Below, one piece after another: positions 27,097 to 42,721 of a stretch of 64,000 bases of DNA (its first letter is position 1; each line of letters begins with the position of its first letter). Below the pieces are notes generated by a model. That model saw only the letters and a list, made by a program, of their open reading frames with translations, was not told where the DNA came from and ran no database searches. This stretch comes from Halolamina litorea (GTDB lineage Archaea; Halobacteriota; Halobacteria; Halobacteriales; Haloferacaceae): contig NZ_JANHGR010000003.1 in NCBI RefSeq assembly GCF_026616205.1, positions 1 through 64,000 of the forward strand. Reading direction: 5' to 3'. Made by a program: the position numbers and the translations under genes.

Positions 27097-28437
27097 CTAC
27101 GCTTGTGCAGCGCTGGCATCGACAACACGACCTGTGAACAGCACCGTCCCGGTTGGTCGATCCCGGATCACGAAGAGGAACGGGCGGTTCGCGTCGAGTA
27201 ACGTCGGTGGAAGCGAGACGAGAGTCATCACTGATCCCGTCGCCGCTGCCGCTTCGGTCCCTTGCTCGTCGACGCCGACGTAGGCGTCGTGGTAGACCTG
27301 ATCGAGAAACAGGTTGCCGCCCACCTCCGAGAGGTCGGCCATCCGTGAGAAGTCCGCCTCATTCGGGGCGAACGCCTCGGTCATTCCCAGCGCCTCCAAC
27401 GATTGCTCCAGTTTGAACGCCGAGTCGAACTCGAAGCGTGGGAGATTGACGTAGCCACGCTGGGGTTCGAGTGCGTCGACGATCCGGGCGAGGCGCTCGC
27501 CGTCGAACGTTCGTTCGTAGGCTGCGAACTCGCCGGCAGGTGGCACGATGACGAGCATCCCGGTCGTTCCGCCGACGTACGGTAGTTCAACGGCCTGGGC
27601 TCCGTCGACGGTCGCCGCCGGGACCCTGACGTCTTGGGACATCATCTGGACCGAACTCGTCGAGCCATCGAGCGCGGTGAACGGGGCGGGCTCCGTCTGC
27701 TCCTCGTCGAACGGATGGAGCCAGTTCGCCGTGAAGTAGATCGCATTCGTCAGGACGAGCGCGGTCTGAGACGTGATCGACCCCTTCGGAAGCAGCTCCT
27801 CGATCCGGTTGTCGGTCTGTTCGGCGACCCAAGCGTTGATGCTTCGCCGGATACCGTTCGGGTTCTCGACGAAATCGACTTCGGTGAGGTCACCGCTGTA
27901 GTGGTTCTCGAGCGTGGTCAGGTATTCCTCCCTGAACGGAAACCCCTCTTGGCCCCAAATGGCGTTGGCGAGCGAGAGCTGGAACGGAACGGGATCGTCG
28001 TCGCCGTCGTACTCCGATGGGAGGTCCGCTTCATCGACGTCCTCGCCGCGGCCAGACAGCGTTCGCTGGAGTTCGTTGAACGCTGCATGGAGTTGTTGGT
28101 CACTGAGTGTGTGGTGGAGCGCCTCCTGCATCTGCTCGCGAGTGGTCCCGCTGGCACCAGCGTACGTCATCGACAGCGCGATCGTGGCACTGATCGGCGA
28201 AACCATCAGGTTCTCGGCGCCCTCAGCTGTGCGGAGTTCGTCGAACAGGTCGAACGCGAACGAGTTCGTTCCAGTTACCAACTCATCGAGGATGTCGTCC
28301 CCAACGTCTGCGTGGACCGCGGGCATCGACGACGCGCTCGCGCCGATGTCCGCTCGGGAGTTTCCCGGTGCTGTACAACCCGCGAGGGCACCGGCGAGGA
28401 GGGCGCTCGAGACGGAGAGATAGTGACGGCGGTCCAT
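27097..28437 (-). CDS. Serpin lipoprotein (inhibitory type)
   Basis: 446 residues from ATG 28437. A signal with lipobox 'LAGALAGC' (Cys21) anchors it outside. The serpin fold is complete: 'NLMVSPISATIALSMTYAGA', 'LVLTNAIYFTANWLHPFD', 'VELPYVGGTTGMLVIVPP', 'ANRPFLFVIRDRPTGTVLFTGRV'. The hinge 'EQGTEAAAATG' (391-401) is that of an inhibitory serpin. With Gly393 as P15, the scissile bond falls between Val407 and Ser408, predicting an elastase- or subtilisin-like target. Haloarchaea secrete subtilisin-like halolysins, so self-protection is a plausible role. Monocistronic. Confidence 0.92.
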   Translation of the reverse strand: MDRRHYLSVSSALLAGALAGCTAPGNSRADIGASASSMPAVHADVGDDILDELVTGTNSFAFDLFDELRTAEGAENLMVSPISATIALSMTYAGASGTTREQMQEALHHTLSDQQLHAAFNELQRTLSGRGEDVDEADLPSEYDGDDDPVPFQLSLANAIWGQEGFPFREEYLTTLENHYSGDLTEVDFVENPNGIRRSINAWVAEQTDNRIEELLPKGSITSQTALVLTNAIYFTANWLHPFDEEQTEPAPFTALDGSTSSVQMMSQDVRVPAATVDGAQAVELPYVGGTTGMLVIVPPAGEFAAYERTFDGERLARIVDALEPQRGYVNLPRFEFDSAFKLEQSLEALGMTEAFAPNEADFSRMADLSEVGGNLFLDQVYHDAYVGVDEQGTEAAAATGSVMTLVSLPPTLLDANRPFLFVIRDRPTGTVLFTGRVVDASAAQA

Positions 28438-28739
28438 ACTCACGAGATGTGGGAGGGGGACGGCGAGTATCTTCTGAAAGCACAAACCGATTTTTCAGTA
28501 AGCTATTCGACATTAGGTGCAGTGTGACGGAGTCGCCGGTAGCGGAACCATACGCGGGCTTGGGTTGCGTTGACGGCGTCGAGGAACCGCTCACGCTCCC
28601 TATAGCTCGACGGAGCAGGCTCAGCCGACAGCGCGAACCCCTCGAAAGGGGAAGTTCGTAACCGATAGCTGAGACGCATACTTCGATGGAGCGGCAAGGA
28701 GTGGACCAAACTGCCACAAAGAAGCTCCGCTCGCTCCGA
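28438..28739. other. 300-base gap, possible gene debris
   Basis: A minus-strand reading at 28503-28709 ends 'ATQARVWFRYRRLRHTAPNV' and looks like a transposase-type C-terminus, but I cannot assign it. Nothing else is supported. Confidence 0.25.
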
Positions 28740-31647: not shown

Positions 31648-34512
31648 CTACTCCGCCACCGTCGCACCGACCTCCTCGAACAGGGTGGCAAAGAGCTTCC
31701 GCTGAACTGTTCTGACGTGTTGGTAGAACGCTGTCGAGGAGATCCCGAGCGTCGACGCGACCTCCTCACCGCTGCTGGCTCTGGGCGACTCGAAGTAGCC
31801 GCCGTAGTACGCGGTCTGGACGACCTCGAACTGTCGGTCGGTGAGCTTCTCTAGGAACCGCGAGTAGAGGTCCCGTTCGGCCGACTGATCGAGTCGCTGC
31901 TTAGACAGCAGTTGGACGCCGTCGAACCGCTCGCGCACGAGGCGGGAGACCCGCCGCACGTCGACGCTCTCGGGGGCGTCGATGACGACGGTCGTCTCCG
32001 TTGGCGTCGCCTTCGCGCTCCTGAAGACGGCGCCGTGTTCCGCGAGTTCGACCGCCAGGAACCGTTCCGAGAACCGAAGTCTGAGTACCGTTTCGGCCCC
32101 CTCGGTACTGATCCGGCGGACGTCCCGGATGGCGACGAGGTCCGCCGCCGTGGCCTCCACGGCCACGGGGTCGCCGTCGTTCACCGTGACGAAGACGTCG
32201 TTGCCCTCCGCGTGCCGTCGGACACCACCCTGGTACACGAGGGTCGAACCCGTTTCGCGGGCGATCTTCGAGAGGACGAACTGCGGGTCGTCCACCTCGA
32301 ACGTCACCCGCGTCATCGACGTCGAGAGGAGGGCGTTCTTCCGCTCGACGGCACTGATCGCGGACGCGATCGTCTCGCCCAACTCCGTCAGTACGTCCTT
32401 CGTCCGGTCGTCGAAGGCCTGCTGCTCGTCGGCGTAGACGGTCAGCGCGCCGTAGGAGAGGTCGTTGTACGTCAGCGGGATACTGATAACCGAGAGGTAA
32501 TCACGCGAGAGCGCCGCCTTGCGCCACGACTCCGTTCGGAGCCCTTCGGCGACGTTGTCGACGACCGCGGGCTGTCCGGTAGCGACGGCACGGCCGGCCG
32601 GTTCCACGCCCTCTCCCTCGATCCGGAACGCCGGGCCGTTCAGGTACCCCTCCTCCCGGCCGTCCCAACTCCGCGGTTCGACGTGGGCCGACGTGACGTC
32701 CGGCGAGCCCACCCACGCGAACGTGAAGCGGTCCTCGGCGGCGAGGAGGCGACAGACCATGTGCTCGACCTCTTCGCGCGTTTCGGCTTGGACGATCGCT
32801 TGATCGATCTCTCGAATGATTTCGTTGATCCGGTTGAGCGAGTGAAGCTGCTCGTTGCGCCGCGTCAGTTCGCGCTCCTGCGTTCGAAGCGTCGATTCCC
32901 GGGAGACCCGGTCGAAGGCTGCTTCCGCGGTTGCTGCGAGCAGGTCAGCAAGCTCTCTGGTGATGTCGTCGAACGGACCGGCCGTGTCGGAGCCGAACAC
33001 GAAGACGCCGTGGTCGCCCAGCGGTGCGTAGCCGACCTGGTGGAGCCCACTCGTCGGATCGCCGAAGGCCGCGGCGTCGTGCACGTCCTCGAAGAAGCGC
33101 GCCTCGTTCTCCACGAAACACTGACTCACGGGGTCGTCGGCGCTCGCGGCGACGCGTTTGGCGGGGTTGTGTAGTTGCGCCATCCGCTCGGAACTGCTCG
33201 ACAGCTCCAGCGTGTTCGTCTCGGCGTCGAAGAGGTACACCGCGCTCGAATCGAGGTTCAACACGCCGGGCGTGTCGTCGACGACGTGCTGTGCGATCGC
33301 CGGGGGCGTCTCGGCGTAGAGGAACTCCCTCGCGGTCGCCTGGAGCGTCGCAAGGGCCTCCTCACGCTGCTTTCGCTCAGTGATGTCCCGGCACGTATAG
33401 AGGATGCGTCCGTCCTGAATCGAGACCTCCCGCACGTTGACCAGCAGCGTGTGCTCTTGGCCCGTCTTGTCGGTGACCGTCGTCTCGATGTTCTTCAGCA
33501 CACCCTTCGAGGCCAACTCCTCGCGGTCGAACAGGTCCTCCCCGAGCAGCTCTTCGACCGGTTGCTGGTCGTGGATCTCCGCGGCACTGTACCCGAAGAT
33601 GAAGTGAACGTTCGGGCAGACGTAGACGTACGATCCGTCCTCGTCGGTCATGAGGACGGTATCGGTCATGTACTTCAACGTCGCCCGGTGGAGCTGTTCG
33701 GACTGCCTGAGGTCGCGGTCGAGCCGGACGCGCTGTGAGACATCGATCCCTTCGACGACGACCGACACCACCTCACCCCGTGCGTTCTCGACCGGATGGA
33801 CCGACAGTTCGAGGATCCGTGGGTCGTCGGCGTCCTCGGCGCCGACGACGACCGCATCGCCGAAGCCCCCGTTCAGCCCCCTCTCGACGAGGGCCGCAAC
33901 GTCGGCACTGAGGCTCGGTTCTCCCTCCCACCACGGGAGTTCACTGAACAGTTCGCCGACCAGGGCGTCGACGGGCTCGTCGACCATCTCGCGTGCAGCC
34001 TTGTTGACCCGGCTCAGACGACCACCATCGTCGAGTACCCACGTCGCCGCACGCGTGTCCTGAAAGACGGCTTCGAACTGCTGTGCGCGCTCCCGCCGGG
34101 TCGCCGTCCGCCTCGCGGACCAGACGGCCCGCCTCGTTCGTTCGACAAGGTCGTCGACGGCGTCGTCGACGGGGTCCTCGATCGGAACGTAGTCGGTAAT
34201 CCCGGCCGAGACGGCACTGCTCGCGAGCCGTTCGCTACCGTCGTCGGTCGCTAGTACGGTCGGGAACGCTGCGGTCTCCTCCTGGAGTTCTGCGAGGAAC
34301 GTCACCCCGTCTGTCTCCCCGACCGTTTTCGCACCGACGACACAGCAGAACTCGTCGGCGCGAAACCGTGCCTTCGCGTCCGCCGCGGTCGCCGCCCTGT
34401 GGACGCTCGCGGACGTTTGTTCCTCGAGCGCCGCCACGAACGCCGGCATCCACGGCTCCGACCCGGCGACGAGTACGGCGGCGTCCTGGAACACCGATTG
34501 ATCCTCGCTCAT
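31648..34512 (-). CDS. Receiver-like/PAS/GAF/HTH_10 sensor-regulator
   Basis: 954 residues. Order: a receiver-like domain (about 10-125) lacking a convincing phosphorylation Asp, two PAS domains (about 145-265 and 270-385, the second with 'VYVCPNVHFIFGYSAAEI'), two GAF domains (about 395-540 and 570-730), a Bat-associated GAF/HTH domain, and HTH_10 at the end ('LTDRQFEVVQTAYYGGYFES', 'GEEVASTLGISSTAFYQHV'). This is a one-component version of the Bat regulator architecture, sensing light, oxygen or small molecules in the cytoplasm. It precedes the zinc-ribbon/gdh pair on the same strand, separated by 119 bases. Confidence 0.9.
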   Translation of the reverse strand: MSEDQSVFQDAAVLVAGSEPWMPAFVAALEEQTSASVHRAATAADAKARFRADEFCCVVGAKTVGETDGVTFLAELQEETAAFPTVLATDDGSERLASSAVSAGITDYVPIEDPVDDAVDDLVERTRRAVWSARRTATRRERAQQFEAVFQDTRAATWVLDDGGRLSRVNKAAREMVDEPVDALVGELFSELPWWEGEPSLSADVAALVERGLNGGFGDAVVVGAEDADDPRILELSVHPVENARGEVVSVVVEGIDVSQRVRLDRDLRQSEQLHRATLKYMTDTVLMTDEDGSYVYVCPNVHFIFGYSAAEIHDQQPVEELLGEDLFDREELASKGVLKNIETTVTDKTGQEHTLLVNVREVSIQDGRILYTCRDITERKQREEALATLQATAREFLYAETPPAIAQHVVDDTPGVLNLDSSAVYLFDAETNTLELSSSSERMAQLHNPAKRVAASADDPVSQCFVENEARFFEDVHDAAAFGDPTSGLHQVGYAPLGDHGVFVFGSDTAGPFDDITRELADLLAATAEAAFDRVSRESTLRTQERELTRRNEQLHSLNRINEIIREIDQAIVQAETREEVEHMVCRLLAAEDRFTFAWVGSPDVTSAHVEPRSWDGREEGYLNGPAFRIEGEGVEPAGRAVATGQPAVVDNVAEGLRTESWRKAALSRDYLSVISIPLTYNDLSYGALTVYADEQQAFDDRTKDVLTELGETIASAISAVERKNALLSTSMTRVTFEVDDPQFVLSKIARETGSTLVYQGGVRRHAEGNDVFVTVNDGDPVAVEATAADLVAIRDVRRISTEGAETVLRLRFSERFLAVELAEHGAVFRSAKATPTETTVVIDAPESVDVRRVSRLVRERFDGVQLLSKQRLDQSAERDLYSRFLEKLTDRQFEVVQTAYYGGYFESPRASSGEEVASTLGISSTAFYQHVRTVQRKLFATLFEEVGATVAE

Positions 34513-34643: not shown

Positions 34644-35066
34644 CTACACGTCGTCGTGGGTCAGGAGCGTCCGCTCGGTGTCGGTGGGCGGCTCCCGGGT
34701 CACCACTTCGAGGAGGTTCCCGTCCGGGTCGAGGAAGTAGAACCCCTCAGTCTCCCCCCAGTCGTAAGGGCCCTGTTTGGGGAACTGATCGTCGAGTCGG
34801 TCCACCAGCGTCTCGTACCGGTCGCGGTCGGTCTCGAAGGCCACGTGGGCCTTGTCCAGCGGATGGTCGAGGTCGGCCGCCGTCCAGCCGTCTGCGCGGC
34901 CGCTCTCGACGAGCGTGAACGTGGTGTCGCCGACGGAGAACATCGCGTGCTCGCCGTGGAAGTCGGCCGGGGGTCGATCGACGGTGAGGCCGAGCGTATC
35001 CCGGTAAAACGGGTAGCACACGGCGAGGTCGTCGACGGCGACGTTGAGGTGATCGACGCCCTCCAT
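34644..35066 (-). CDS. VOC (glyoxalase/dioxygenase) family protein
   Basis: 140 residues. Two beta-alpha-beta-beta-beta modules: 'GVDHLNVAVDDLAVCYPFYR' at the start and 'DKAHVAFETDRDRYETLVDR' in the second. 'GFYFLDPDGNLLEVVTRE' ends with the metal-ligand Glu. Likely ligands are the first-module His, the 'AHVAF' His and this Glu. VOC members isomerise, cleave C-C bonds or bind drugs. The start overlaps the stop of the cupin gene by one base (TGATG), so the two are translated together. Confidence 0.85.
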   Translation of the reverse strand: MEGVDHLNVAVDDLAVCYPFYRDTLGLTVDRPPADFHGEHAMFSVGDTTFTLVESGRADGWTAADLDHPLDKAHVAFETDRDRYETLVDRLDDQFPKQGPYDWGETEGFYFLDPDGNLLEVVTREPPTDTERTLLTHDDV

Positions 35067-35413
35067 CAGTCGTCAGCCTCCCCCCAGTCAGGTTCGTCTC
35101 GCGGCGGCGAGAGGACACCGATGCCGACCGCTGGTTCCTCACCTCGGTTCTCGGCGCCGTGAAGCTCGCCGCTCTCGAAGGCGTAGGAGGTCCCCGCGGG
35201 CAGGGGACGGGTCTCGTCGTCGAGTACCGCGGTCAGCGCGCCGCTGATCACGTAGCCGATCTGTTCGTTGTCGTGACGGTGAGTCGGGAGCGTTGCCCCC
35301 GGTTCGACGCGCCAGAACTTCATCGATGCGCGTTCACCGCGGGCTAAGTCAGCGAGGGCGACGCCCTCGGAAACCGTCGTCGGGGATCGTTCATCCGTGG
35401 TCACTCGGTTCAT
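35066..35413 (-). CDS. Cupin-domain protein
   Basis: 115 residues, single cupin fold. Motif 1 'THRHDNEQIGYVISG' supplies two His and a Glu; motif 2 'PAGTSYAFESGELHGAENRG' supplies the third His. Such small cupins bind a metal and act as isomerases, dioxygenases or sensors. First gene of a cupin-VOC operon that faces two binding-protein-like genes across an 87-base promoter region with a shared palindrome. A TATA-like sequence (35444-35453, reverse) is 31-40 bases from the start. Confidence 0.85.
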   Translation of the reverse strand: MNRVTTDERSPTTVSEGVALADLARGERASMKFWRVEPGATLPTHRHDNEQIGYVISGALTAVLDDETRPLPAGTSYAFESGELHGAENRGEEPAVGIGVLSPPRDEPDWGEADD

Positions 35414-35448
35414 CTGGCGTGTGGTGCGTAGTCACACCGAGGTAGGTA

Positions 35449-35471
35449 TAAAGGTTACCAACCAACCTTTA
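35449..35471. promoter_or_regulatory. Shared operator of the divergent cupin / binding-protein operons
   Basis: TAAAGGTT (35449-35456) and AACCTTTA (35464-35471), eight-base arms with a seven-base spacer. The left arm overlaps the TATA box of the cupin gene and the right arm overlaps that of the 35501 gene, so one dimeric repressor could silence both directions. Confidence 0.65.
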
Positions 35472-35500
35472 AGTGGTACTCGGAAGAACCCCCGATTCGC

Positions 35501-36397
35501 ATGTCAGACGACGACCGACTCCGACTGTTCCACCTGCCGTTCTCGTTCATGCTGCCCCAGCGGGTGGCCAGCGAGCGCGGCTACTTCGCCGACGAGGGCC
35601 TCGACGCCGAGCTCGTCGAACGCGAACGCAGCGACGTTGAGTGGAAGTACATCCCCGCCGAGGAGCGCCTGACCGACGACTACGGAATCGACGTCTACCC
35701 GATCTGCAAGTGGGAGAGCCTCAAGCGGACGTGGGAGATGGGCGACGGTCGTGTCGTCGCGAAGGGAACCTTCGCCGACCAGCCATACAGCGTGTTCACC
35801 CGACGCGACGACATCACCGATCCGTCGGACCTCGCCGGCGTTCCGGTCGGCATCAACGAACGGACCGGGCAGGAGTACACCGCGATGCGGGCGCTGGAGG
35901 AGCACATGGCCCCCGAGGCCGTCGAACTCGTCCACCACGGGATGCCGACCGACCGCCTGCAAGCCCTCGACGACGGCGAGGTCGACGCCGTGATCCTGAT
36001 CGAGCCTCACAGTACGCTGGCCGAACGGCTCGGCTTCGAGCGCGTCCTGGAGTTCGAGAACCACATGGGGATCGTCGGCGGCGAGGGGCTCGACCGCGAG
36101 ACGTTCGCCGGGTTCATGCGGGCGTTCGGCCGCGCGGTCGGGGAGATCAACGCCCATCCCGACCGCTACCGCGAGGCGTACCTCTCGATGCTCCGATCCG
36201 AGGAGGACGAGGCGCCGGAGCTGTTCGCCGGCATCGACCTCGACGCCGTCGAAGCCGAGCTTTCGGTGCCGGAGTACGACGTGCCCCAACTGGCCACCGG
36301 CGACGAACTCGACGAACACTTGCGCTGGATGCAGCGCCGCGAACTGGTGGACGACGACGCCGATATCGACGCCATCGTCGCCGACGGGGGTGAGTGA
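35501..36397 (+). CDS. Cytosolic NMT1/THI5-like binding protein 1
   Basis: 298 residues, no signal peptide, starting 'DDDRLRLFHLPFSFMLPQRV'. It has the periplasmic-binding-protein type 2 pattern of SsuA/NMT1 proteins: 'ASERGYFADEGLDAELVERE', 'VPVGINERTGQEYTAMRALE', 'LQALDDGEVDAVILIEPHST'. Lacking a leader and any adjacent permease or ATPase, it probably acts in the cytoplasm, as an enzyme (THI5-like) or as a ligand carrier/sensor. The stop overlaps the next start (GTGA). A TATA-like box 27-35 bases upstream supports the start. Substrate unknown. Confidence 0.7.
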   Translation: MSDDDRLRLFHLPFSFMLPQRVASERGYFADEGLDAELVERERSDVEWKYIPAEERLTDDYGIDVYPICKWESLKRTWEMGDGRVVAKGTFADQPYSVFTRRDDITDPSDLAGVPVGINERTGQEYTAMRALEEHMAPEAVELVHHGMPTDRLQALDDGEVDAVILIEPHSTLAERLGFERVLEFENHMGIVGGEGLDRETFAGFMRAFGRAVGEINAHPDRYREAYLSMLRSEEDEAPELFAGIDLDAVEAELSVPEYDVPQLATGDELDEHLRWMQRRELVDDDADIDAIVADGGE

Positions 36398-37383
36398 TCG
36401 TGGGGATCGAAGACCAACAGGCTGCCATCGACGCCGAACACGGCGACCCTGAGGGGCTGCCGGTCATGCGGGCCCGCTTCGAGCACAACGGCAGCCCGCG
36501 GTACATGCTTTACACGATGAAGCGGCTCGGCCTCGACCACGAGCACGGCTTCCACCTCGACTTCGAGTTGGTCTCGGACGAACTCGAAGGCGAAGTCGAG
36601 ACCGTCGAGGCGAAGCTACAGGACGGCGAGGCCGACCTGATCGACATCGACTACATCTCGACGGCCCGCGAGCGCGCCGAGGGCGCGCCGATCGTCGCGT
36701 TCTACCCCTACGGCCGAACCGTCGGCGGCCTCGTCGCCCACGAGGACAGCGACATCGACTCGCTCGCCGACCTGCAGGGGAAGGACGTCGGCGTCGTTCG
36801 TCGGCTCGACAAGAACTGGATCCTCGTCCGTGCGGCGACCCGGGAGCAGTACGGCTTCGACGCGGACGAGGCGGCGACGCCGATCGAGGCCGGCTCGAAG
36901 GTCGAACTCACGCGGATGATCCGCGAGGGCGAGGTCGACGCCGTCCTGCAGTTCTGGCCGATCGTCCCCGAGATCACCGAGACCGGCCCCTACGAGGAGG
37001 TGCTCCCGATGGCCGAGCTCGTACAGGACCTCTCGGGCACCGACAACAAGCTCCCGATTTCGACGTTCCTGACGAGCGAGGAGTACCTGGACCACCACCG
37101 CGAGACGGCCCGCGCGTTCGCCAGCGCATACCGAGCGACCGTCGACCGCCTCGTCGAGGACGACGAGCCGTGGGAGGTCGTCGGCGAGAAGCTGATGACC
37201 CACGACGACCCGGAGATCGTCCGGGCGGTCCGTGACGGTTGGCGCGACATGGTCGTTCGGGACTGGGACGAGGAGACGATCGACGGGATGGAGGAGCTGT
37301 TCGACTCGCTGTACGCCATCGGCGGCACCGACGCGCTCGGTGTGGACCACATCCCCGACGGGATGTTCCGACTGCTCGAGTAA
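36394..37383 (+). CDS. Cytosolic NMT1/THI5-like binding protein 2
   Basis: 329 residues, GTG start (36394, or 36400). Again a type 2 binding fold without export signal: 'RYMLYTMKRLGLDHEHGFHL', 'AKLQDGEADLIDIDYISTAR', 'DLQGKDVGVVRRLDKNWILV', 'IREGEVDAVLQFWPIVPEI'. It is a diverged paralogue of the preceding protein and is translationally coupled to it, so the two may form a heterodimer. No CCCFC-type THI5 motif is seen. Its neighbours (cupin, VOC) point to a small catabolic or biosynthetic pathway. Confidence 0.7.
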   Translation: MIVGIEDQQAAIDAEHGDPEGLPVMRARFEHNGSPRYMLYTMKRLGLDHEHGFHLDFELVSDELEGEVETVEAKLQDGEADLIDIDYISTARERAEGAPIVAFYPYGRTVGGLVAHEDSDIDSLADLQGKDVGVVRRLDKNWILVRAATREQYGFDADEAATPIEAGSKVELTRMIREGEVDAVLQFWPIVPEITETGPYEEVLPMAELVQDLSGTDNKLPISTFLTSEEYLDHHRETARAFASAYRATVDRLVEDDEPWEVVGEKLMTHDDPEIVRAVRDGWRDMVVRDWDEETIDGMEELFDSLYAIGGTDALGVDHIPDGMFRLLE

Positions 37384-37780
37384 CGGACCGGGGGTCAGCA
37401 CGTTTCGCCGATGTCGTCTCGGCTGCCGTCCCGAGGACTGAGACGGCTCCCCGGGGCAGAGTCGACATCGTACCAGTGAAAATACGATCATTAATGTTCG
37501 TCACCGCTGAGGCGTCCCCCAGACGGGGGGAGCACACAGCGCTCGGGCCGAACGGGGACTGCTCCGAAACGAACCCGCGAACCTACTGGAACCTAGTCGG
37601 GGTGTAACAAATTTCCGCGGTCCCGTACTGCCTGTGAGGGGCCCGTATTGGGTCTGGAAAAATGGTTCTCGACGACCCCACCACGAACATCGGTGTTCAG
37701 CCGGCCCGCAGCGGTACAGCGGGCGTGCAGGAGTCACTCGGCGCGCACAGAGCCGGTGCGCCCACGGCAGGGGGGGCGAT
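37384..37780. other. 397-base leader of the giant secreted protein gene
   Basis: No gene is supported. An in-frame extension of the next gene to 37634 lacks a signal peptide and coding character. An AT-rich stretch near 37480-37497 may hold a promoter. GCCCGC and GCGGGC near 37706-37726 could form a small hairpin. Confidence 0.4.
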
Positions 37781-40700
37781 ATGCGACGACTGACGGGGTT
37801 CGTCGTCGTCCTCGTCGTGCTGCAGCCGGCGGTTGCGGGCGTCGTCTTCGCCGATACCGCCATCGCACAGCAGTCCCACGACCTCGGCTTGACGATCGAC
37901 GAGGATGGGGTTGGTGATGACTCCGACGGGGACGGCTACTACGACGAGGTCTCGCTGGTTTTCAGCGCCGACACCGAGACCGGCGAGTTCGGCGGCGGTG
38001 AACCCTACCTGAAGGTGTTCGTCAACGACACGCGGATCAGGCCTTCACAGTACGGCAGCAGCAACATCCTCGAGGAGCGCCCCGACTTCCGCACGACGAT
38101 CTTCCTGCAGTCGTCCGAGATCGCGAACCTCACGAAGGGACCCCAACGGGTCCGCGTCGAACTGTGGGAGGACGACTTCGTGACGGACGACAAACTCGGC
38201 GAGGTCACCGTGACCGTGCCGATGGAGCCGGAGGCGGCCGACACGCCCGTTCGGCAGGCCGCGACGGAGGGCATCGACGCGATCATGCCCATCTACGCGA
38301 GCGCCCAAGAGCAGGGGTTCAACCCCGAGTACTGGGAGGGCGTCTCCCAAGACCGAACTGAGGTCGCCGTCGAGATCGGCGTCGACGCCGTCGGGGGGGA
38401 GATCACCCCCGGGCCGATCGACCTCCTTGAGGTTCCGGGCGCCGGGGCCTACTCGCTGGGGATGCAGCTCATGGACCTCACGGAACAGGGAGTGTACATG
38501 GTGGCGGCGTTCCAGGCACAGCGGGACGCGACGGTCCTCGAGATGGCCGCACAGGAGAACACCGAGTTCCGTCGGAGTTTGGAACGGTTGCGGGAGAACC
38601 ACCGCGAGATCGATGAGGAAGTCGATCAGGACGGCGATGGCGACTTCGACGAGGCCGACGAGCGACAGCTCTACCGTGAGCGCCAACGGCTCCTCCGGGA
38701 GGCCTACGGCACCCTCGAAACGTACGAACGGGAGACCCGTCGCGTGATCGAACGCGGCGAGAGTTGGGGCGTGCTGGACGTGTGTGAGAGCGACCCGGAC
38801 GACAGCCTGTTCACGTCTTTCTTCGTCGCGCTCTGTGACCGTTCGGTCGACATCGACGAGGACCAGCTCAGGGACTTCGAGAACGCGACCGGCGACCTGA
38901 AGACGGTGATGCGCGCCGACTGGCGCTGGACGAACGCGTGGCTCGCCAACTCCACCGAGTACGGCATCGAGCCACTCAGCGGGCAGGCCACGGCGGAACC
39001 CCGGCCGGAGATCACGGTCGTCGAGGTCCCCGACACCGTCGTTCCGGGCGAGACCGTCACCGTCCGCGTCGAAACCACGAACGACGGTGCGAACGCCTCG
39101 GTACAGACGATCGCCGTCTCGTTCCCCGACGGCATCTCGCGGGACGCCGTCACGGCCGTCGGCGACAACTTCGGCGTCGAGTCGCCTTCGACACCCGCCG
39201 ACGGCTACCGGATGCTCCTCACCGAGGGCGAAACCGTCGGTGCGAGATACGGGACCGAGACCATCCCGCTGCAGTACCCGCTGTTCGAGGTCGGGAACGA
39301 GGTCCCTGCCGACGAGTCACGCTACCTCGAACTCGAGGTCACGATCCCGGAGGACTACACGGCGGACACGTTCAGCCTCCAGATCAAGTCGGTCGCGCGA
39401 GGGGACGACTGGGTCTCCGACCCCGCGGTCGGGGCCACCGATGCCATCGACCAACAGGGCGAGTTCGTTCGCGAGGAGACCATACAGGTGTACGCTGACC
39501 GCGACGACGACGGGATCAGGGACGGCATCGACGAGTGCCCCGACAGCGCCGAGGACGCCGACGGGGTTGCCGACGACGACGGCTGTCCCGACGGCGACAT
39601 CAGGGCGACGATCGACGGGCGAACCACCGTCGCCGTCGGGGAGTCACTCACCCTCGACGCCTCGGGCACCTCCGTCGACCCCGCGACTGACGGATCGCTC
39701 AGCTACGAGTGGGAGGTCGTCAGCCAACCGCAGGGCGCCAGCGTCGCGCCGCCGACCGGTGTGACGGGTGACGTGTCGTTGCCCGTCGCCGGCACCTACG
39801 AGTTCCGCGTCACGGTGACGAGCGACCGCGGCGGGTCCGACACCGCCCGGCTCACCGTCACCGCGCAGAACGAGGCACCGACGGTTACCGCCTTTACGCT
39901 GTCGGCGGCGGGGAGCGACCAGCTCCAGGTCGCGTTCGACAGCTCTGAACCGCTGGGACAGGTGACCGTGGAGATCACGGACGCCTCCGGTGCGACCGTC
40001 GCGACGTTGTCGCGGGACGACTTCTCGACTGACGGCGGCACGTACACGGCCACGACGACCCAGCTTCCCGCCGGAGAGTATACGGCGACACTCACCGACG
40101 CCGTCGACGATAGCGGTGCGAGCGCCGATGCGGGACAGTCCGGGACGGCAACGCTCGACGGCGCGTCTCCGACGGCCGCCGCCGCCAGCGACGGCTCGCC
40201 AACCGACGACGGCAGCTACGAGGTGACGCTGGATGCTGGCGCCACGAGCGACCCGGATACGCCGGCGAGTGACCTGACGTACGAATGGTCGGTGACAGCC
40301 CCGAACGGGGCATCGAGCGTCCCGACGCCGTCCGGACAGGGCGGCACCGTTGAACTGCGGACGCCCGGGACCTACGAGTTCGGCGTCACGGTCTCTGACC
40401 CGGCTGGGAACACGGACACGGCGACGACCACCGTCACCGTCCCCGAGGCCAGCGACGATCCCGATGAAACCGACTCTGAGTCACCGGATCAGAACGACAA
40501 CACCACCGCTCCAGAGGTGGTCGATTCCTGTACCGTCATCGACGAGCCCGGTACCTACGAACTCACGGGTGACCTCGACACCTCCGGCCCGGGGCCGTGC
40601 ATCCACGTGCGTGCGAGCGACGTGACCCTCGACGGGAACGGCTACACCCTCTCCGGGGACGGCGTCGAGGACTCCATCGGCCTCCTCGTCTACAACGGCT

Positions 40701-42721
40701 CCGCCGAGGGGTTCGAGGACAACGAACCGCTGACGAACGTCACCGTTCGTGACCTCACGATCCGCGAGTTCGAGCGTGGCGTCCGCGCGGGACCGACCCT
40801 CGACAACGGCGGGCCGCGGGTTCGGTTCGTCGACCTCACCGTGGGCTCGGCCGGCGGCATCACGCTGTTCGGCGCCGACGACAGCGTCCTCCGGAACGTC
40901 ACCGCGACCGACGGCGAGAACGGTCTCTACCTCTGGGAGACGAGTAACGTGACCGGTGAGAACCTCACCATCACCGACAACACCGAGGTCGGGCTGTTCT
41001 TCGCCCAGGTCGTCGAGGGGAGCCGGTTCAGCGACCTCACGGTCAGGAACAACACCGGCGGCGTCTACTTCAGCACCGACACCGTCGACAACCGCGTCAC
41101 CGACGCGAGCGTCCTGAACAACGGCGAGTACGGCGTCAGCTTCTCGGATTCCAGGGAGAACCTCTTCGCCCAGTCGACGATCAGCGGGACCGACGGCCCC
41201 GCCGTCCTCGTCGACAACTCGCGCCGCGACCGGGTCGAAGACGTCGAGGTCCGGAACGCCGACGGCGTCGTGTTCGAGGTCCGTTCGGACAGCGAAATCG
41301 GGTTCGCGAACGTCCTGATCGGCCCGCGAGTCTCGGTCTCGACGCCCGACGACGGCTCGGCCGTGACCTTCCAGGGAGATTCCGACGACCCGATGCAACT
41401 CCGCGCGACCCCAGTCGCCGACTTCGACGGCGACGTCCCCGGTCGTGCGCTGACGGAGCGGGTGATCGCAGTCTCCAACGCCGACTCGAACGTCGTGGTG
41501 ACGTTCACGCCCGACCCTGCAGACGACGCGGACCGGCAGCAACTGTTCCGGCTCACTGGTGACCAGTGGGCGCCCATAGACGGTGCCGCGGGGTCGCCGC
41601 TGACGCTGACACTCGACGGGTCCGAGACGGTGACACCCTTTGCCGTCGATGACGACGGGGGCGAGACCGACGGCGGCGGGGCCGATGGAACGGATGATGG
41701 TACCGAGGACGCCGACGACGGAACGGACGACAGCGACGACGGAACTGACGAAAGCGACGACGCAGCGACGACGGAGCGGACGCTCCAGATCATCTCGACC
41801 GGGGAGAACGAGTTCGAGTACGAGTTCGTCGTCGAAGGGACCGCCGCGAAGAGCAACACCGACACGATGGCTGCCGACTCGGGCGACTCCGTCGAGTCCA
41901 TCGGCTCGAACCGGGTCAGGATAAGCGGCTCGACCGGCGATAACAGCGGCGACGCGTTCGCCGTCACCGGCGAACTCGTCAGCGCCGAAGTCGTGGGCGG
42001 CGAGTCGAACTTCGAGATCATCCTCGGCTCTGAGGACATCACCGACGAGGTGACCGAATCCGAGGCTGATGGGGACTCTGACACGTCCCTCCTGACGGTG
42101 CTCTCGACCGAGGACAACCAGTTCGAGTACGAGATCGTCGTCGACGGAACCGCGGCCAAGAGCAACACCGACGACGTCGCCGCCGACTCCAGTGATGACG
42201 TCGAGTCCGCCGGCGACGGGACGGTGGTCATCTCCGGGTCCACCGGGGACAACTCCGGCGACGCCTTCGAGATCACCGGTACGGTCGAGGAAGCCCGGGT
42301 GATCGGCGTCGACTCCGGCTTCGAGATCGCCGTCGACGGCGACCCGATCGACGTCAGCACGTCGACGGCGGCGGACGGCGAGAACGACGGGACGGACGAC
42401 GATGGCGATTCCGAGGACGAGACCACCGGGCTGGTCGGCGACGAGTCCACGTTGGAGATCCTGGCGACCTCCGAGGAGCAGGTCGCCTACGAGGTCGTCG
42501 TCGATGGGAGCGCCGCGAAAAGCAACACCGACGACGTCGCCGCCGACTCGAGCGATCGGGTCGAGGTCAGGGACGACGGGACGGTGCTCATCATCGGCAC
42601 CACCGGAGACAACTCCGGCGACGCCTTCGAGATCACCGGGGAGATCGTCTCCATCGAACTCGAGGGGGGAGACGCCCGACTCGTTTTCGAGGGAGAAGAC
42701 GTGACGGACCGGGCCGACTGA
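37781..42721 (+). CDS. Giant secreted multidomain surface protein
   Basis: 1646 residues from ATG 37781, chosen because it gives a Sec signal ('RRLTGFVVVLVVLQPAVAG'). Order: C2-like N-terminal domain with Ca-type Asp clusters; helical region with EF-hand-like 'DQDGDGDFDEAD' (near 286); beta domain; thrombospondin type 3-like 'DRDDDGIRDGIDECPD' (near 572); two PKD-type domains (about 607-690, 795-887) with another beta domain between; parallel beta-helix (about 915-1190); Asp/Gly-rich linker; and three related C-terminal domains (1334-1646). No PGF-CTERM or C-terminal TM is seen, so it is released or held by partners. Adhesion or glycan binding is likely. Confidence 0.88.
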   Translation: MRRLTGFVVVLVVLQPAVAGVVFADTAIAQQSHDLGLTIDEDGVGDDSDGDGYYDEVSLVFSADTETGEFGGGEPYLKVFVNDTRIRPSQYGSSNILEERPDFRTTIFLQSSEIANLTKGPQRVRVELWEDDFVTDDKLGEVTVTVPMEPEAADTPVRQAATEGIDAIMPIYASAQEQGFNPEYWEGVSQDRTEVAVEIGVDAVGGEITPGPIDLLEVPGAGAYSLGMQLMDLTEQGVYMVAAFQAQRDATVLEMAAQENTEFRRSLERLRENHREIDEEVDQDGDGDFDEADERQLYRERQRLLREAYGTLETYERETRRVIERGESWGVLDVCESDPDDSLFTSFFVALCDRSVDIDEDQLRDFENATGDLKTVMRADWRWTNAWLANSTEYGIEPLSGQATAEPRPEITVVEVPDTVVPGETVTVRVETTNDGANASVQTIAVSFPDGISRDAVTAVGDNFGVESPSTPADGYRMLLTEGETVGARYGTETIPLQYPLFEVGNEVPADESRYLELEVTIPEDYTADTFSLQIKSVARGDDWVSDPAVGATDAIDQQGEFVREETIQVYADRDDDGIRDGIDECPDSAEDADGVADDDGCPDGDIRATIDGRTTVAVGESLTLDASGTSVDPATDGSLSYEWEVVSQPQGASVAPPTGVTGDVSLPVAGTYEFRVTVTSDRGGSDTARLTVTAQNEAPTVTAFTLSAAGSDQLQVAFDSSEPLGQVTVEITDASGATVATLSRDDFSTDGGTYTATTTQLPAGEYTATLTDAVDDSGASADAGQSGTATLDGASPTAAAASDGSPTDDGSYEVTLDAGATSDPDTPASDLTYEWSVTAPNGASSVPTPSGQGGTVELRTPGTYEFGVTVSDPAGNTDTATTTVTVPEASDDPDETDSESPDQNDNTTAPEVVDSCTVIDEPGTYELTGDLDTSGPGPCIHVRASDVTLDGNGYTLSGDGVEDSIGLLVYNGSAEGFEDNEPLTNVTVRDLTIREFERGVRAGPTLDNGGPRVRFVDLTVGSAGGITLFGADDSVLRNVTATDGENGLYLWETSNVTGENLTITDNTEVGLFFAQVVEGSRFSDLTVRNNTGGVYFSTDTVDNRVTDASVLNNGEYGVSFSDSRENLFAQSTISGTDGPAVLVDNSRRDRVEDVEVRNADGVVFEVRSDSEIGFANVLIGPRVSVSTPDDGSAVTFQGDSDDPMQLRATPVADFDGDVPGRALTERVIAVSNADSNVVVTFTPDPADDADRQQLFRLTGDQWAPIDGAAGSPLTLTLDGSETVTPFAVDDDGGETDGGGADGTDDGTEDADDGTDDSDDGTDESDDAATTERTLQIISTGENEFEYEFVVEGTAAKSNTDTMAADSGDSVESIGSNRVRISGSTGDNSGDAFAVTGELVSAEVVGGESNFEIILGSEDITDEVTESEADGDSDTSLLTVLSTEDNQFEYEIVVDGTAAKSNTDDVAADSSDDVESAGDGTVVISGSTGDNSGDAFEITGTVEEARVIGVDSGFEIAVDGDPIDVSTSTAADGENDGTDDDGDSEDETTGLVGDESTLEILATSEEQVAYEVVVDGSAAKSNTDDVAADSSDRVEVRDDGTVLIIGTTGDNSGDAFEITGEIVSIELEGGDARLVFEGEDVTDRAD
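41780..42718 (+). repeat. Three tandem ~90-residue domains
   Basis: Units begin near 41780, 42089 and 42449. Each has 'EYEFVV'-like strand, 'AAKSNTDDVAADSSD' and 'GSTGDNSGDAFEITG' cores. Units 2 and 3 are more alike, suggesting recent duplication. They resemble the beta-sandwich repeats common in haloarchaeal surface proteins. Confidence 0.8.

Follow-up and report, generated by a model that had tools for sequence, protein, structure and literature searches.

A divergent locus in the haloarchaeon Halolamina litorea is, in our judgement, probably a cytoplasmic PQQ-handling module serving dehydrogenases that would be loaded with their cofactor inside the cell; we favour this reading on grounds of homology, synteny and co-occurrence. 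The locus lies within the window, a 64,000 nucleotide stretch (positions 1 to 64,000 of contig NZ_JANHGR010000003.1, forward strand) of a 3.02 Mb genome in four contigs, whose closest named relative, judged by the P1 protein described below, is Halolamina salifodinae (87% identity). Five observations were made: the homology of the locus protein P2 to the bacterial PQQ-binding protein PqqT, the synteny of the block, its co-occurrence with PQQ-type dehydrogenases (PQQ-DHs), the lack of signal peptides, and the lack of PqqC. From these we infer PQQ binding by P2, delivery of PQQ to the dehydrogenase, a chaperone role, and PQQ import.

The genes of the locus are real and conserved. Two are read from the minus strand: a 140 aa VOC protein of glyoxalase/FosA-like fold (34644–35066; Pfam PF00903, E 6e-8) and a small cupin of 115 aa (35066–35413; Pfam PF07883, E 3e-18) whose HxH...H metal motif was intact by eye. 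Facing them on the plus strand are P1, a cytosolic SsuA/THI5-type protein of 298 aa (35501–36397; Pfam NMT1, E 7e-12), and P2, a signal-less PqqT-like protein of 329 aa that is predicted to bind PQQ (36394–37383; Pfam NMT1/THI5, E 4e-12); putative back-to-back BRE/TATA core promoters (35446–35473) lie between the two pairs. The genes of each pair (VOC/cupin and P1/P2) overlap by 1 to 4 bases, and P2 begins within the stop of P1; the true start of P2 may be the GTG at 36400 instead of 36394. An earlier, sequence-only reading of this DNA had proposed four open reading frames here, two of them for binding-fold proteins having neither signal peptides nor transporter partners. All four frames are present at the positions it gave, and P1 and P2 both score above the Pfam NMT1/THI5 cut-off; direct reading and orthologue alignments showed no N-terminal hydrophobic, Tat or lipobox segment in either protein, and within the window neither has a permease or ATPase gene as a neighbour. 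The structural observation of that reading was right, and its guess of cytosolic binding proteins was partly right.

By sequence and by predicted structure, P2 is a cytoplasmic relative of PqqT of Methylorubrum extorquens AM1, nearer to PqqT than to other binding proteins. A P2 profile searched against the PDB matched PqqT (9b1u, 9b1v and 9ooz) at E 2e-58, the next chain being no better than 4e-6; a single-sequence phmmer search from P2 reached PqqT at E 8e-23, and no further family fell under 0.001. The two proteins are about 24–26% identical and share the same fold over nearly their full length: the AlphaFold model of P2 (pLDDT 82.5) gave VIA Z values of 33.1, 32.6 and 32.5 against PqqT (rmsd 2.1 Å, 297 residues aligned; next family 23.6) and Foldseek TM values of 0.80/0.88. 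PqqT has a Kd for PQQ of 50 nM (PMC12124388), and exchange of its Lys142 for Asp builds a lanthanide (La) site beside the PQQ (PMC12828617). The numbering was checked (9b1u equals 9ooz plus 27, and Lys142 is the Lys of ALDKNW in PqqT); this lysine aligns with K140 of P2 (LDKNW), which is invariant in 22 homologues, archaeal and bacterial. PqqT W162 (mature numbering) is likewise kept, as W188 of P2, whereas PqqT Tyr161 (9ooz numbering) is replaced by Phe187, the aromatic being kept and the residue changed. By analogy with PqqT, P2 would be expected to bind PQQ. The cytosolic use of binding-protein folds that had been suggested for this locus is supported; the suggestion that this use was new, with no known relative, is not supported, P2 being a relative of PqqT.

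We scanned 84,980 genomes, from which 33 haloarchaeal loci were fetched, and made class-wide counts over 292 haloarchaeal genomes. P2 and strong matches to P1 were found in the identical 40 of the 292 genomes. The cupin was divergent from P1 in 33/33 loci, P2 stood after P1 in every one of these loci with a continuing contig, and a VOC gene was linked to the P1–P2 block, on either side, in 31 of the 33. The claim of one conserved divergent unit was therefore not refuted by loss of the arrangement. The four-gene unit is conserved, as proposed, but is larger in relatives: P3, a third cytosolic THI5-like protein of the same fold (L041, 11907–12878), usually follows P2, and did so in all loci with a continuing contig, Halolamina excepted. 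Orthologues of P3 (68–81%) co-occur with the P1/P2 genomes, again with the exception of Halolamina, and one further genome has P3 as a broken copy; the binding-fold proteins form a set of three (P1, P2 and P3) in most P2-positive genomes. The Halolamina locus, unlike that of most relatives, is without P3, and Halolamina has only a P3 paralogue (54–55%) located elsewhere in the genome; in the genome of the window this paralogue belongs to an ABC cluster (L082), where it overlaps the gene of a binding protein of the Tat-lipoprotein type. Recurrent neighbours of the block are aldehyde oxidoreductases (AOR, XDH-type and ALDH) and a CaCA cation antiporter.

Public records label P1 and P2 "ABC transporter substrate-binding protein", and the two could be ordinary solute-binding proteins of that type, with a signal peptide hidden by an annotation or start error and a transporter encoded at a distance. 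Paralogous ABC systems do exist in the genome, and the bacterial relatives of P2 are secreted and accompanied by ABC genes. These relatives, the binding proteins of alphaproteobacterial XoxF/PQQ-ADH loci, are about 31% identical to P2 and share its PQQ-dehydrogenase context: 7/7 examined records (Sinorhizobium pSymB, Gemmobacter, Pseudosulfitobacter, Phaeobacter, Shinella, Phyllobacterium and Alloyangia) lay within PQQ-alcohol-dehydrogenase clusters, in some cases with xanthine-dehydrogenase-family genes nearby, as in the haloarchaeal loci. ABC ATPase and/or permease genes adjoined the relatives in these records, and both proteins whose N-termini were read had signal peptides. The haloarchaeal proteins differ on each count. 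Alignment showed no signal peptide in P2 or in 19 haloarchaeal homologues, the orthologues of many genera share one signal-less start position, and P2 starts inside the P1 stop; a permease or ATPase gene directly adjoined the block in none of the 33 loci, and three of these (L043, L048 and L053) have, a few genes away, an ABC cluster that includes a lipoprotein of its own. An exported protein in disguise is thus highly improbable. The sequence-only reading had held that homologues with signal peptides or ABC neighbours would speak against it; taken literally such homologues exist, among bacteria, but not among the haloarchaeal orthologues. P2 accordingly departs from PqqT, which is periplasmic, in being archaeal and signal-less, in having no adjacent ABC ATPase or permease gene, and in its translational coupling to P1 and usually P3. 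We propose that cofactor loading shifted to the interior of the cell, which would account for a periplasmic protein in bacteria and a cytoplasmic one in archaea.

Like PqqT, which lives with PQQ alcohol dehydrogenases, P2 keeps company with PQQ-type dehydrogenases. A PQQ-DH was present in 38/40 P2-positive genomes versus 11/252 P2-negative genomes (Fisher P 3e-35) and, counted by genus, in 12/13 versus 6/64 (P 6e-9); the genomes are related and the P values overstate their independence, the genus count being less affected, as is the split within the genus Halolamina, where two genomes have both P2 and PQQ-DH and four have neither. In 11/33 loci, genes for PQQ-DH or for its small partner, c6, lay no further than 10 kb from the block; c6 and PQQ-DH co-occurred in 49/50 genomes, and c6 gave no family match in Pfam or NCBIfam. 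The haloarchaeal PQQ-DH matched solved quinoproteins at E 1e-64; it scored 373 bits against the 480 cut-off of NCBIfam TIGR03075, and it also resembles the "empty" quinoproteins of TIGR04528. Most of the linked PQQ-DHs retain the CysCys, GGE, Asn and Asp-Tyr-Asp (DYD) motifs of the lanthanide-type XoxF methanol dehydrogenases, from which they differ in being about 29% identical, in having an N-terminal extension and no signal peptide (none was found in the linked enzymes), and in always being paired with c6. The genome of the window has four PQQ-DHs, which are divergent types without the CysCys pair; none lies within the window. P2 is not universally needed, since 11 PQQ-DH genomes do without it; one P2-positive genome without a PQQ-DH (G037) is a single contig from which plasmids are perhaps missing.

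Some copies of the c6 protein start with a Tat-like RRxFLKALG sequence, which is lost in most of the P1-linked copies. A rule that P2-positive genomes have only cytosolic PQQ-DHs was ruled out by five P2-positive genomes with Tat-type c6 only (G032, G107, G151, G163 and G262) and by several P2-negative genomes with signal-less c6. P2 is thus not a simple marker of unexported dehydrogenases, and therefore it is loading, not final location, that we read as cytoplasmic. The Tat pathway carries folded proteins, and for this reason the five genomes with Tat-type c6 only would fit cytoplasmic loading.

PqqC was found in 0/40 P2-positive genomes, with Sinorhizobium positive controls recovered at E 1e-126 to 5e-129, and a search for PqqE gave matches only to generic radical-SAM proteins, below the cut-off. 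Because PqqC is absent, PQQ would be obtained from outside. An ABC system with a lipoprotein, which in the window's genome lies in its own PQQ locus (L078, 14143–17453), was present in 33/49 PQQ-DH genomes versus 2/243 others, and in 32 of the 33 no more than 15 kb separated its lipoprotein gene from c6; such a system is a likely candidate for the PQQ importer in many of these genomes. Each of the 50 genomes with PQQ-DH or c6 had the P1–P2 block, the ABC lipoprotein system, or both. Another explanation is that P1–P3, the cupin and the VOC protein are not carriers but enzymes of an alternative biosynthesis of PQQ or a PQQ-like quinone, or of adduct repair, with P2 binding the product or an intermediate: the lipoprotein was lacking in 16/38 P2-positive PQQ-DH genomes versus 0/11 P2-negative ones, as if the block replaced import (P 0.009, a value that ignores phylogeny and depends on the E-value limit). 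The missing PqqC is in keeping with this, as are the resemblance of P1 and P3 to THI5/DszB/MqnA-D-type enzymes with a binding-protein fold and the invariant Cys69-x-Trp71 of P1, which follows the strand at 65–69 (C69 and W71 also occur in bacterial relatives). Set against it are the generic nature of the PqqE matches, the two limits on that P value, and the fact that resemblance of fold is not activity, and we regard alternative supply as very doubtful. Doubtful to a somewhat greater degree is its fuller form, in which P1–P2–P3, the cupin and the VOC protein would make or repair PQQ or a PQQ-like quinone in the cytoplasm, independently of PqqABCDE, and lanthanide-type dehydrogenases would be loaded inside.

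The remaining proteins are less readily placed. The AlphaFold model of P1 (pLDDT 87) had SsuA as its best fold match (Z 22), with PqqT at 18.7; assignment of P1 to one PDB family was rejected, as it matched only type 2 binding proteins in general, SsuA first. P3 is nearest to ThiY and THI5 (E 3e-12 and 5e-12), which are pyrimidine/thiamine binders; THI5 is an HMP synthase, and ThiY binds formyl-aminopyrimidine. P1–P3 resemble THI5, DszB and MqnA/MqnD in placing the type 2 binding-protein fold in the cytosol, where those proteins act as enzymes; they differ from these and from ThiY in their linkage to PQQ dehydrogenases, and the likeness is one of fold or sequence. P3 may also be a cytosolic counterpart of the lipoprotein of the L078 ABC system, since the two are 38% identical. 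A further alternative is that the ligand of these proteins is a substrate of the PQQ pathway, be it an alcohol, an aldehyde or an acid (or else a lanthanide carrier), and that they serve in the cytosol as sensors or carriers instead of handling PQQ. The SsuA sulfonate binders nearest to P1 and the pyrimidine/thiamine binders nearest to P3 would agree with this, and so would the recurrent antiporter and aldehyde oxidoreductase (AOR, XDH-type or ALDH) neighbours. P2, however, is far closer to PqqT than to any substrate binder and keeps the Lys beside PQQ, and none of the proteins is fused to a DNA-binding domain; we consider substrate binding unlikely. Under the PQQ-handling reading, the cupin and the VOC protein probably serve that pathway as accessory enzymes, and the small-molecule pathway earlier proposed for the locus finds support.

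The inverted repeat TAAAGGTT-N7-AACCTTTA was confirmed at 35449–35471, the exact position at which an eight-base-arm palindrome had been reported. Neither the window nor the rest of the 3.02 Mb genome holds a second copy (0 occurrences in 100 shuffles), and the repeat is also perfect in Halolamina salifodinae, where the spacer is different. Perfect arms, unique in the genome and kept around a changed spacer, would suit an operator for a dedicated regulator of one regulon. The arms overlap both TATA boxes, as claimed, but only TATA and BRE-like bases are conserved between genera: TAAA-N15/16-TTTA, which corresponds to two back-to-back TATA boxes at fixed spacing, was kept in 33/34 loci, and TT/AA were conserved at BRE-like positions (TAAA...TT...AA...TTTA), whereas the GGTT/AACC arm bases occurred only in the two Halolamina sequences and varied across the other genera. 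Complementarity of the arms within loci was no higher than in swapped-halves shuffles (56 cells versus a mean of 56.2, P 0.58), no relaxed motif was found around the genome's own PQQ locus (L078), and no linked regulator gene was constant across loci. The shared operator is rejected as a conserved feature outside Halolamina by complementarity equal to that of the shuffles, and the haloarchaeal motif and the linked regulator expected along with it were not borne out; an operator of a dedicated regulator is quite unlikely. As judged from the aligned loci, the conserved element is a pair of predicted archaeal promoters set back to back, and their fixed geometry across loci suggests that the two overlap and are regulated together or compete.

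Under the mechanism that we propose for PQQ handling, PQQ would enter from outside, in many genomes by way of an ABC importer with a lipoprotein encoded beside PQQ-DH genes. P2 would hold the PQQ in the cytosol, perhaps with Ca2+ or Ln3+, and would pass it to PQQ-type dehydrogenases folding in the cytoplasm; the loaded dehydrogenase would either stay there or exit folded, via Tat, with c6. P1 and P3 would act as companion binding-fold proteins and the cupin and VOC proteins as accessory enzymes, and AOR, XDH-type or ALDH enzymes would join the pathway in other genomes; their presence as neighbours suggests that an alcohol is oxidised to an acid.

PQQ enzymes are considered rare among archaea (PMC7300363), and we found no description of PQQ handling in haloarchaea in the open literature. 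Nearly all archaea that carry the block have PQQ-type dehydrogenases as well, a pattern that suggests intracellular management of PQQ without PqqC. If this is true, dozens of haloarchaea would have intracellular PQQ binders annotated as ABC transporter substrate-binding proteins; cofactor loading would be cytoplasmic, which it is not in Gram-negative bacteria; and the archaea concerned would consume PQQ (perhaps lanthanides as well) and rely on other microbes.

The small partner gene of the haloarchaeal PQQ-type dehydrogenase, c6 (L042:4907-5812), belongs to a family without Pfam or NCBIfam matches (other members at L079:8575-9486 and L081:8704-9636) that is a constant neighbour of these dehydrogenases; some members begin with a Tat-like signal, which others have lost. 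Four such pairs were found in the genome of H. litorea (loci L078, L079, L080 and L081), all of them missing the adjacent-cysteine motif and keeping Asp-Tyr-Asp.

Around the predicted PQQ binder P2 and the THI5-like P3 of other haloarchaea, P2 was duplicated in tandem in Haloplanus (L057:10894-13051 and L066:8241-10409), and P3 was repeatedly adjoined by a CaCA-type sodium:calcium antiporter gene (L042:14694-15713, L075:14906-15940, and in L043, L048 and L065), possibly tied to the metal requirement of PQQ enzymes. In the window, the gene immediately 3' of the block (37634-42721), for a large PKD and right-handed beta-helix (NosD-like) protein, falls outside the conserved region. Downstream of the VOC gene, on its strand, lies a PAS-GAF-HTH_10 (bacterio-opsin-activator-like) regulator gene (31648-34512), and a haloarchaeal serpin (serine protease inhibitor) is encoded at 27097-28485 (E 7e-107).

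Elsewhere in the same genome, overlapping genes for a signal-less THI5-like protein and a Tat-lipoprotein binding protein (L082:6974-9068) sit within an ABC cluster whose cargo is perhaps a thiamine precursor. In 32 of 33 genomes, genes for PQQ dehydrogenases show linkage to a lipoprotein ABC system with an ATPase and two permease genes (here L078:14143-17453), a candidate archaeal PQQ importer.
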